Assembly: GCA_019634625.1 (NCBI GenBank)
Contig: JAHCBA010000053.1
Location: 1 to 37,791, forward strand
Reading direction: 5' to 3'
Origin: Verrucomicrobiia bacterium
GTDB lineage: Bacteria > Verrucomicrobiota > Verrucomicrobiia > Limisphaerales > CAIMTB01
Length of the DNA stretch: 37,791 nucleotides
The notes beneath the pieces are model-generated. The model was not told where the DNA came from. It was given only the letters and a program-made list of their open reading frames with translations, and searched no databases. Positions 34,883 through 37,791 of the stretch are shown here, piece by piece (positions within the stretch are counted from its first letter, which is position 1; each line of letters starts with the position of its first letter). The position numbers and the translations under genes are program-made.

Positions 34883-34929
34883 CCCCCGGACTTGCCTCAA
34901 CCGCCGTCCACGGTACCGTGCCCGCCCCT

Positions 34930-35865
34930 ATGCCACTGGAGAAGGTCGTCATCGTCGGAACCGGCTGCGCGGGCCTCACCGCCGCCATCTACACCGCCCG
35001 CGCCAACCTCAGCCCCCTCGTTCTCGCCGGCCCCATGCCCGGCGGCCTGCTCACCACCACCAGCATCGTTGAGAACTTCCCCGGCTTTCCCGAGGGCATC
35101 GACGGCTACGAACTGATGACCCGCATGCAGCAGCAGGCCGAACGCTTCGGCGCCCGCATCCAGTTCGGCGAACTCGAAGGCGCAGATCTCTCCGCCCCCC
35201 CATTCCGCCTCACCATCGACGGCAAACCCGTCGAAACCCAGTCCCTCATCATCGCCAGCGGCGCCAGCCATCGTCACCTCGGCCTCGACAGCGAACGCGC
35301 CCTCGAAACCCACGGCGTCACCTACTGCGCCACCTGCGATGGCGCCCTCCCCATGTTCCGCAACCAGCCCGTGGTGGTGGTTGGCGGCGGAGATTCCGCC
35401 TGCGAGGAGGCCACCTACCTCACCCGCTTCGCCTCGACCGTCCATCTCGTCCACCGACGCGACCAGCTCCGCGCCTCCCCCATCATGGCCGACCGCACCC
35501 TCTCCAATCCCAAGATCCAGCCCATCTGGAATTCCGTGGTCACCGACATCCTCGATCCCGCGCAGAAAAAGGTCACCGCCGTCCGGCTCCAGCACGTCGC
35601 CACCGGCGAACAACGCACCCTCCCCTGCGCCGGCGTCTTCATCGCCGTCGGCCATGTCCCCAACACCAAGGTGTTCCAGGGCCAGGTCGCCATGGATGAC
35701 AACGGCTACATCCAGACCCGCCGCGGCACCGAGACCAGCGCCCCCGGCGTCTTCGTCGCCGGGGACTGCCATGACCACGTCTATCGCCAGGCCATCACCG
35801 CCGCCGGCGAGGGCTGCGCCGCCGCCATCGACTGCGAACGCTACCTCGCCGGACTCGACACCTGA
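34930..35865 (+). CDS. trxB: Thioredoxin-disulfide reductase
   Basis: This 311-residue FAD/NADPH enzyme reduces thioredoxin. Visible are the FAD-binding VVIVGTGCAGLTAA near the N-terminus, GGLLTTTSIVENFPGFP, the redox-active CATC (C133-C136), the NADPH-binding VVVGGGDSACEEA (149-161) with HRRDQLRAS after it, and the late FAD motif GVFVAGDC. Length is normal for the low-molecular-weight bacterial type. Start ATG 34930 gives MPLEKVVIVG; a GTG at 34918 would add four residues. It is convergent with leuA, with 8 bp between stops. The promoter must lie in the 47-bp divergent space shared with the MBL-fold gene. Confidence 0.93.
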   Translation: MPLEKVVIVGTGCAGLTAAIYTARANLSPLVLAGPMPGGLLTTTSIVENFPGFPEGIDGYELMTRMQQQAERFGARIQFGELEGADLSAPPFRLTIDGKPVETQSLIIASGASHRHLGLDSERALETHGVTYCATCDGALPMFRNQPVVVVGGGDSACEEATYLTRFASTVHLVHRRDQLRASPIMADRTLSNPKIQPIWNSVVTDILDPAQKKVTAVRLQHVATGEQRTLPCAGVFIAVGHVPNTKVFQGQVAMDDNGYIQTRRGTETSAPGVFVAGDCHDHVYRQAITAAGEGCAAAIDCERYLAGLDT

Positions 35866-35873
35866 CGCCGACC

Positions 35874-37541
35874 CTAACCCCGGTTCAAGGCGCTGAGAAT
35901 CGCCCGGATCGGCGCCAGCTCGATGTTGGTGTCCACCCCGGCCCCCCACCTCTGGCGGCCATCCCCGAACCTCAGGCACACATAGGCAATGGCCGAGGCC
36001 TCCTCCCCGTAGCTCAACGCCCGTTCGCTGTACTCCGCCACCTCGAACCGTGGCGCCCCCCCGGCCGCCAGCGCATGCACGAACGCCGCGATCGGCCCGT
36101 TCCCCTGCCCCGTCACGTCAACCGTCTCCCCCCCACGCAGCAACCGCGCCTCGGCCCGTACCCCGCCCGCGCCGCTCTCCGTCCGGAATCCCAGCAACTG
36201 CCACGGCTGGACCCGCTCGACATATTCCCTCCAGAACATCGCCTTCAGTTCCGCTCCCGTAACCTCCCGGCCGAGCCGGTCCACCTCGTCGTTGGCGATC
36301 GGTCCAAACTCCCGCTGCAATTCCTTCGGCAGCTCAATGCCAAACTCCGACTCCAACAGGTACGCCACCCCGCCCTTCCCCGACTGGCTGTTCACCCGGA
36401 TCACTTCCCGGTACTCCCGCCCCACATCGCCCGGGTCGATCGTGAGATACGGTATGTCCCAGACCGCGTCGCGACCCCCGGCGGTCACCTGTTCCCACGC
36501 CCGCAATCCCTTGCGGATCGCGTCCTGATGCGACCCGCTGAACGCCGTGAACACCAGCTCCCCGGAATACGGATGTCGCGGCGGCACCGTCATCCCCGTG
36601 CACCGTTCATACACCTCCCGCAGCCGGTTCAAATCCGAGAAATCCAGCCCCGGGTGAATCCCGTTCATGTAGAGATTCAACGCCACCGTCACGATATCCA
36701 GGTTGCCCGTCCGCTCCCCGTTCCCGAACAGCGTCCCCTCCACCCGGTCCGCCCCCGCCAGCAACCCAAGCTCCGTCGCCGCCGTCCCCGTCCCCCGGTC
36801 GTTGTGCGTGTGCAAACTCACGATCGCCGTGTCCCGACGCCGCAGGTTCCGGATGAACCACTCGATCTGGTCCGCATACACGTTCGGCATCGCCACTTCC
36901 ACCGTGTCCGGCAGATTCAAGATGATCGGGCGCTCCGGCGTCGGTCCCCACACCTCGGACACCGCCTCACAGACCTCAAGCGCGAACTCCACCTCGGTCG
37001 CCGAAAAACTCTCCGGCGAATACTCGAACCGGATGTCCGATCCCGCCAGACGCGGCAAACGCTCCTTCACCCATTGCGTCCCCCGCACCGCGATCTTCAA
37101 CACCTCCGGCTTCTCCAGTCCGAACACGATCCGCCGCTGCGCCGGTGAGGTCGAGTTGTACAAATGCACGATCGCCCGGCGCACCCCCGCCAGCGACTCC
37201 ACCGTCCGTTCGATCAGATCCTCCCGCGCCTGCACCAGCACCTGGATCGTCACGCCCTCCGGCACCCGCCCGTCCTCGATCAACCGCCGCAGAAAGGCGA
37301 ACTCGGTGTTCGACGCGGCAGGAAACCCGACCTCGATCTCCTTGAAGCCGCACCGCACCAGCCCCTCAAACATCTCCAGCTTCTGCGAGATGTTCATCGG
37401 CACCGCCAGCGCCTGGTTCCCGTCCCGCAAATCCACGCTGCACCACATCGGCGCGGCCGTGATCTCCCGCTCCGGCCACTGCCGGTCCGGCAATCGCACC
37501 ACGGGAAATGGTCGGTACTTCGTCTTCGGATTCGTCAACAT
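35874..37541 (-). CDS. leuA: 2-isopropylmalate synthase (long, yeast/actinobacterial-type)
   Basis: This 555-residue enzyme condenses acetyl-CoA with 2-ketoisovalerate, the committed step of leucine synthesis. The N-terminal KYRPFPVVRLPDRQWP and RDGNQAL (R39-L45) with SVDL before it identify the TIGR00970-like long class. The metal-binding HTHND is at 244-248, followed by LFGNGERTGN. The C-terminal about 130 residues form the LeuA regulatory (leucine feedback) domain, including YGEEASAIAYVCLRFGDG. Start ATG 37541 is 45 bp after a strong terminator hairpin. Before that lies a leucine-rich 26-residue open frame, so the gene is probably controlled by transcription attenuation as well as by feedback. 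Confidence 0.95.
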   Translation of the reverse strand: MLTNPKTKYRPFPVVRLPDRQWPEREITAAPMWCSVDLRDGNQALAVPMNISQKLEMFEGLVRCGFKEIEVGFPAASNTEFAFLRRLIEDGRVPEGVTIQVLVQAREDLIERTVESLAGVRRAIVHLYNSTSPAQRRIVFGLEKPEVLKIAVRGTQWVKERLPRLAGSDIRFEYSPESFSATEVEFALEVCEAVSEVWGPTPERPIILNLPDTVEVAMPNVYADQIEWFIRNLRRRDTAIVSLHTHNDRGTGTAATELGLLAGADRVEGTLFGNGERTGNLDIVTVALNLYMNGIHPGLDFSDLNRLREVYERCTGMTVPPRHPYSGELVFTAFSGSHQDAIRKGLRAWEQVTAGGRDAVWDIPYLTIDPGDVGREYREVIRVNSQSGKGGVAYLLESEFGIELPKELQREFGPIANDEVDRLGREVTGAELKAMFWREYVERVQPWQLLGFRTESGAGGVRAEARLLRGGETVDVTGQGNGPIAAFVHALAAGGAPRFEVAEYSERALSYGEEASAIAYVCLRFGDGRQRWGAGVDTNIELAPIRAILSALNRG

Positions 37542-37585
37542 CGTGTCGTTCTCGGTTGTGCCAGCCTTCGCTCCCGACGTCGGGC

Positions 37586-37619
37586 AAATAAAAACCCGCC
37601 GCCGTTCTGCGGCGGCGGG
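37586..37619 (-). terminator. Rho-independent terminator in the leuA leader (attenuator)
   Basis: Minus strand: a perfect 10-bp stem CCCGCCGCCG / CGGCGGCGGG with a 5-nt loop (37595-37619), followed by TTTTTATTT. It lies 27 bp after the leader-peptide stop and 45 bp before the leuA ATG. A terminator so placed would stop transcription before leuA. Confidence 0.88.
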
Positions 37620-37646
37620 CGGGTCAAATCGCGTTCTGAAAATCGG

Positions 37647-37727
37647 TCAGAAACCGGCCAGACCCCGCACCGCGCCGCCACCCGGCAGCGCCAGTCGAAG
37701 AGCCAGCAGATTTTCCGTCCGAATCAT
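37647..37727 (-). CDS. Putative leuA leader peptide (26 aa, six Leu)
   Basis: ATG 37727 opens a 26-codon frame, MIRTENLLALRLALPGGG plus AVRGLAGF, ending at TGA 37647-37649. Six of 26 residues are Leu (positions 7, 8, 10, 12, 14 and 23), five of them CTG, and five fall within eight codons. It is followed by a strong terminator and then leuA. This is the standard architecture of leucine attenuators: ribosome stalling at Leu codons under leucine shortage would favour an antiterminator. The RNA of codons 17-23 (GGCGGCGCGGTGCGGGGTC) can pair, with a few bulges, with the 5' arm of the terminator and its upstream GACCCGC, which is the expected antiterminator. No peptide was measured; this is inferred from sequence. 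Confidence 0.72.
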   Translation of the reverse strand: MIRTENLLALRLALPGGGAVRGLAGF

Positions 37728-37735
37728 CGGCGCCG

Positions 37736-37765
37736 CTTGTACCCCCCAGCCCTCCACCAAGTCAA
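37736..37765 (-). promoter_or_regulatory. Candidate promoter of the leu leader / leuA transcript
   Basis: Minus strand: TTGACT (37765-37760) and TACAAG (37741-37736) are separated by 18 bp, giving 5/6 and 4/6 matches to sigma-70 consensus. Transcription would begin at about 37727-37729, at or next to the leader-peptide ATG, so the leader RNA may be leaderless. Confidence 0.45.
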
Positions 37766-37791
37766 GTCCACGGTCCGGTCCGCCCGTCCAC

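Follow-up and report, generated by a model that had tools for sequence, protein, structure and literature searches.

A conserved Leu-rich leader before leuA in Verrucomicrobiia as a likely leaderless, ribosome-mediated attenuator

Introduction

At the end of a contig from a Verrucomicrobiia bacterium a short Leu-rich reading frame and a strong hairpin stand directly ahead of leuA, and the question raised by this arrangement is whether it couples transcription of the gene to the supply of leucine. In Proteobacteria and Actinobacteria, and in some Firmicutes, amino acid genes are known to be controlled by leader-peptide attenuation. An earlier note on this DNA had read the arrangement as a Leu-responsive attenuator for which it knew of no described counterpart in Verrucomicrobia. 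In keeping with the latter point, a search of the open-access literature found no report of leader-peptide attenuation in Verrucomicrobiota, although subscription papers fall outside its scope and priority is uncertain; the same search found nothing relevant on attenuation in Planctomycetes or on leaderless transcripts in Verrucomicrobia. The analysis presented here supports the attenuator reading, with a conserved cassette whose arms covary, and goes beyond the earlier note in four respects: a leaderless start, a P1 hairpin, a sister element at ilvB and a displaced leader stop in the contig's own copy. The DNA analysed (the window) is the whole contig of 37,791 bases, and sequence upstream of the leader is readable to its end at 37791 only.

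Results

The regulated gene, leuA (35874..37541, minus strand), encodes a 555-aa 2-isopropylmalate synthase assigned by profile match to the long (TIGR00970) type (722 bits, cut-off 697). The unit looks monocistronic because the neighbouring thioredoxin reductase gene (34918-35865, plus strand) is convergent. Ahead of leuA, and on the minus strand like all the leader features that follow, lies a leader ORF (37647..37727) that encodes the 26-aa peptide MIRTENLLALRLALPGGGAVRGLAGF before its stop codon and has homologs in the same place in relatives. Five Leu fall within eight positions (codons 7-14), the regulatory codons being 7, 8, 10, 12 and 14 (37686..37709), and the relatives are all Leu-rich. 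The ORF is followed by an intrinsic terminator stem-loop (region 3:4, 37595..37619; 10 bp, -22.6 kcal/mol) with the sequence CCCGCCGCCG-CAGAA-CGGCGGCGGG, in which all 10 bp are GC and an eleventh pair is gained by counting one G-U, and by the T-tract TTTTTATTT (37586..37594). The leuA ATG stands at 37541, 45 nt past the T-tract and about 190 nt from the leader start. Frame, hairpin, T-tract and ATG spacing are thus confirmed in the sequence as first described. Only one of the 252 short ORFs in the window, the leuA leader itself, has at least five Leu in eight codons plus a strong terminator, and ten shuffled windows gave no such case among 4240 ORFs, so that the chance expectation for this combination is near zero.

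The cassette is widely conserved. Of 97 genomes searched, about half have long-type LeuA (about 65-81% identical), and most of the others carry a LeuA type that is only about 33% identical (the short type). At 44 long-type loci with upstream sequence a leader ORF of 20-26 codons is followed by a terminator; one further locus (L014) shows repeat-like sequence alone as far as the contig end, and another (L019) has no upstream sequence. Each of the 44 aligned peptides contains 4-8 Leu (mean 6.4) at conserved positions, and the Leu codons, whose loss in hairpin-bearing relatives the earlier note had regarded as fatal to its reading, are therefore kept. A covariance model built from the leuA leaders and used to search same-order genomes matched a leader in 30/30 of them at E <=1.4e-11, the best E per genome ranging from 1e-34 to 1e-11. 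Coordinate comparison places the cassette directly upstream of leuA, of either type, in 29 of these 30 genomes, the leader of the thirtieth standing at a contig end. Among short-type same-order loci the leader was found in 18 of the 20 inspected, two not being recovered by script, and in additional families of the class short-type LeuA is preceded by the same arrangement with differing arm sequences. Leaders of one kind hence stand before two LeuA types that share only about 33% identity. In one genome (G019:C183, G019:C220) both types are present, and a separate leader precedes each.

Genes further upstream of the leader vary between genomes, whereas the distance from leader stop to terminator stem is 18-27 nt in 75/77 leaders and 34 nt in the other two, which argues that the hairpin is not the terminator of another gene, as had been considered possible. 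Between terminator and leuA the relatives have anything from 11 to 231 nt, in some of them with inserted repeats. The repeat CCACGGATGAACACGGATAAACACGG, its complement or fragments of it lie between attenuator and leuA at seven loci (L012, L014, L025, L031, L034, L035 and L045), where copies widen the gap to as much as 231 nt and leave the switch untouched. Comparison of 10 long-type with 10 short-type loci revealed no convincing homologous gene shared within 5 kb upstream, and exchange of LeuA in place consequently lacks support from upstream neighbours.

A phylum-wide scan of 241 genomes with the model matched the window alone, which is a weak absence, since strict filters were combined with a model fitted to the order. 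Two Chthoniobacter-like MAGs (L055, L070) have a Leu-rich, apparently leaderless ORF before long-type leuA, followed by different sequence with no obvious intrinsic terminator. In a Nitrospirae MAG (L085) a Leu-rich ORF just past a TTGACT...TATAGT promoter is followed by a strong terminator at most 77 nt from leuA, an arrangement that may be a leaderless Leu attenuator outside this phylum.

The promoter region bears on how the peptide would be translated. A -35-like TTGACT (37760..37765) lies 38 nt before the leader start and is separated by an 18-nt spacer from a -10-like TACAAG (37736..37741) that ends 8 nt ahead of the leader ATG; the latter went unscored in a sigma-70 scan because the scan requires T at position 6. 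Across the 44 leaders TTGAC occurs 34-40 nt before the leader start in 39 (mode 36) and at 30 nt in one, while four have no exact TTGAC inside 45 nt. An A-rich stretch stands ahead of TTGAC, and a Shine-Dalgarno-like motif is found in a single leader (1/44). Because of this promoter geometry and the near absence of Shine-Dalgarno motifs, the predicted RNA start falls at the leader ATG or 1-3 nt before it, and the peptide is probably leaderless.

Toward its end (about codons 16-23; region 2, 37661..37681) the leader ORF contains the 5' strand of an antiterminator. Its partner, region 3 (37609..37625), consists of GACCC plus the terminator 5' arm and has regions 2 and 4 as alternative pairing partners; in the window's copy these leader codons fold onto 37625-37609 once the terminator 3' arm is omitted. 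In the 44-leader alignment 96.4% of terminator cells are paired, 23 of them with double changes, and covariation is 0.219 versus <=0.091 when the pairing is slid; the antiterminator is 82% paired, with covariation of 0.162 versus 0.012-0.070, the shuffled-column controls taking no account of relatedness. When partners were swapped among 77 leaders the native duplex of leader end and terminator arm averaged -21.9 kcal/mol versus -19.5 kcal/mol for swapped pairs, and 0/20,000 permutations matched the native energy. The long-type and class-level sets each pass this test alone; the 18 short-type same-order leaders alone fail it, with 2954/20,000 permutations as good. Both arms have changed together in other families of the class, for example TTCGCGTCGGAGACGATGGGC with GAACCCATCCCGACGCGA. 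Folding, covariation, slide control and partner swap agree on the pairing between leader codons and the terminator 5' arm with its preceding GACCC that the earlier note had proposed. For the window's own copy the antiterminator shuffle z reaches only -1.4, which its high GC probably explains. One position in the middle of the antiterminator is unpaired in 41/44 leaders, mostly as C opposite C (alignment A1, columns 66 and 118), at a point where the terminator has G-C, a mismatch that may make the antiterminator the weaker of the two structures.

A further hairpin, P1 (region 1:2, 37672..37691), has the sequence GCGCTGCC-GGGT-GGCGGCGC, with the last Leu codon of the run in its 5' arm. Its partners are the second Leu-codon run and the codons immediately ahead of region 2. 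P1 is paired in 85% of cells with covariation of 0.162 versus 0.032-0.129 when slid, folds better on average than synonymous shuffles (mean z -0.95, n=77 leaders) and shows complementary rewriting in distant leaders, for example GGATTGCTGACCGGCAATCC and CCCCGAAAGCTTTCGGGG. Since the Leu codons form one arm of P1, the full 1:2, 2:3 and 3:4 logic of classical attenuation is present by sequence, all three pairings lying within about 140 nt. The Leu codons themselves are biased relative to those of the leuA genes, with more CTG (0.59 versus 0.32), CTT (0.17 versus 0.07) and CTA (0.07 versus 0.007) and less CTC (0.05 versus 0.36). Selection for P1 pairing could account for this bias, as could selection for codons sensitive to tRNA charging of the kind discussed in PMC1183508.

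The effect of ribosome position was modeled by masked folding, a crude equilibrium model in which nucleotides covered by an assumed footprint are blocked and the RNA is folded before region 4. With the ribosome on the Leu codons the mean antiterminator probability in three groups of leaders is 0.83, 0.76 and 0.77, and with the ribosome on the stop codon it is 0.35, 0.33 and 0.32. The expected direction is obtained in 74/77 leaders, and the mutually exclusive structures anticipated earlier are thus borne out for the family, but not for the window's own copy, in which the antiterminator reaches 0.97 at the stop and 0.80-0.98 when stalled and the states are not separated. In this leader TGG stands where congeners have their usual stop, and the frame continues for three more codons (37661-37647); because the stop is displaced, region 2 is partly uncovered by a ribosome at the stop. 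In this model the window's allele may be leaky. The copy is a slightly deviant member of the family, and its masked fold is not counted against the others.

A sister element precedes ilvB. The leader in the genome's own ilvB locus, MSDRQPMPPGLLVLVVVSTGLAGGVSCR up to its stop (G000:C20 5800-8200, L184), is Val/Leu-rich and has a 38-nt TTGAC spacing like that of the leuA leader. In same-order relatives the ilvB leaders (L128-L152, L166, L171, L172, L243, L255) likewise encode Val/Leu-rich, probably leaderless peptides, with TTGAC mostly 34-40 nt before the start and a terminator sequence unlike that of leuA. The leader end pairs with its own terminator 5' arm at -23.5 kcal/mol versus -20.4 kcal/mol for swapped partners, with 0/20,000 permutations as good, in a set of 26 entries of which two are one own-genome locus and two precede methyltransferase-like genes. 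The regulated amino acid fits the downstream pathway at both genes, and a mechanism that senses codons is strongly supported by the change from Leu-rich to Val-rich peptides between leuA and ilvB. The regions upstream of trpE and hisG have neither a leader nor a terminator of this kind, and weak model matches before argC look like terminators of the preceding gene and were rejected as leaders. In two other families of the class (L252, L253) a Val-rich leader with an ilvB-like terminator stands directly before a methyltransferase-like gene. At five loci (L165, L169, L170, L178, L182) a leader-like ORF and a terminator (AACCCGCGATTGCC and similar), at about positions 100-330 in gene orientation, precede a conserved protein of about 113 aa with no assigned function; the end of the ORF and the terminator 5' arm show rough complementarity, and the peptides contain Cys and usually Trp.

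Discussion

Very probably the leuA leader works by ribosome-mediated transcription attenuation, with charged tRNA-Leu as the signal. The parts of the switch, their conservation and covariation and the spacing from promoter to start come from sequence and comparison, and from them we infer where the RNA starts, that the peptide is translated, that ribosomes stall on it, which way the system responds and that Leu-tRNA is the effector. Transcription would begin at or beside the leader ATG, and a ribosome would translate the 26-codon peptide from the very 5' end of the RNA. When leucine is plentiful the ribosome would reach the stop and cover region 2, leaving region 3 to pair with region 4, so that the terminator would form and RNA polymerase would halt before leuA. 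When charged tRNA-Leu is scarce the ribosome would instead stall on the Leu codons and disrupt P1, and the freed region 2 would pair with region 3 before region 4 is made, allowing leuA to be transcribed. If the leader is not translated, P1 and the terminator would be expected to form by default.

Simpler readings have to be weighed against this mechanism. A strong hairpin in a GC-rich genome might be a plain or constitutive premature terminator and the Leu-rich frame a chance product of GC-rich DNA. Retention of the frame, its spacing and its complementarity in 77 leaders from several families, the use of Val instead of Leu in the ilvB sister and the near-zero chance expectation in window ORFs and shuffled windows make this exceedingly improbable. 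The peptide might matter while the hairpin does not, with Rho or translation initiation at leuA as the point of control; nothing specific favours such a scheme beyond the Streptomyces leuA leader, which is without a typical intrinsic terminator (PMC8079986). It is hard to reconcile with a canonical stem and T-tract kept through compensatory changes, and since the terminator-leuA distance is so variable there is no fixed coupling to the leuA start, and we regard control of this kind as extremely unlikely.

The peptide could also be incidental to a leader RNA that is bound by protein or acts as a leucine riboswitch or T-box, and there is precedent in the Actinobacterial LEU elements, Leu-rich leaders before leuA that have been argued to work by another route (PMC1262725). 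Against this, Rfam gave no match at gathering score in the window and only chance-level matches, none of them relevant, for three loci at E up to 5, and the leaders have no conserved unpaired core outside coding and stem positions. The ORF itself contains the antiterminator strand, whose distance to the Leu codons and to the stop is nearly fixed, and the arms are rewritten between families. A ligand- or protein-bound RNA is therefore very unlikely, and attenuation by a translating ribosome is the reading that we carry forward.

At the level of the class, the evidence tips us modestly towards a broader picture, in which leaderless attenuators run the branched-chain amino acid regulon in these Verrucomicrobiota, the leuA cassette is ancestral and has been kept despite exchange of the enzyme for the about 33%-identical type in many lineages, a Val/Leu sister serves ilvB and relatives stand before genes of unknown function. 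If the leaders work as inferred, they would imply that transcription and translation are closely coupled in Verrucomicrobiota and that leaderless initiation is efficient there, and would provide two natural sensors, for Leu at leuA and Val/Leu at ilvB, in an order of largely uncultured bacteria. The presence of two unlike LeuA types behind one switch would be a useful case of regulation outliving its gene.

Among known systems the leu leader of enterobacteria combines a Shine-Dalgarno with rare Leu codons. It resembles the Verrucomicrobial leader in its run of Leu codons, its alternative 1:2, 2:3 and 3:4 pairing and a terminator before leuA (PMC1183508). The ilvBNC attenuator of Corynebacterium glutamicum is alike in architecture, by which the two are likened here rather than by sequence: one nucleotide separates its RNA start from the leader start codon, and a leader peptide rich in branched-chain amino acids and three alternative hairpins precede a branched-chain amino acid gene. 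It differs in phylum, in its 292-bp regulatory region and in its Val/Leu/Ile codons as against Leu only here (PMC11857589). The Actinobacterial leuL (LeuL1) or LEU element shares a Leu-rich leader peptide upstream of leuA, and leuL is transcribed leaderless in Streptomyces lividans (Actinobacteria) (PMC8079986, PMC1262725). Unlike the leader described here it has no typical intrinsic terminator and is drawn as a pseudoknot whose base stem joins Leu codons to the leuA Shine-Dalgarno (PMC8079986, PMC1262725), in the place of which the Verrucomicrobial leader has a terminator and antiterminator; codon changes in the Streptomyces leuA and ilvB leaders were reported not to act like classical attenuation (PMC1262725). 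The kind of mechanism is thus already known, and what distinguishes the Verrucomicrobial leader is the combination of a leaderless start with a true terminator at leuA.
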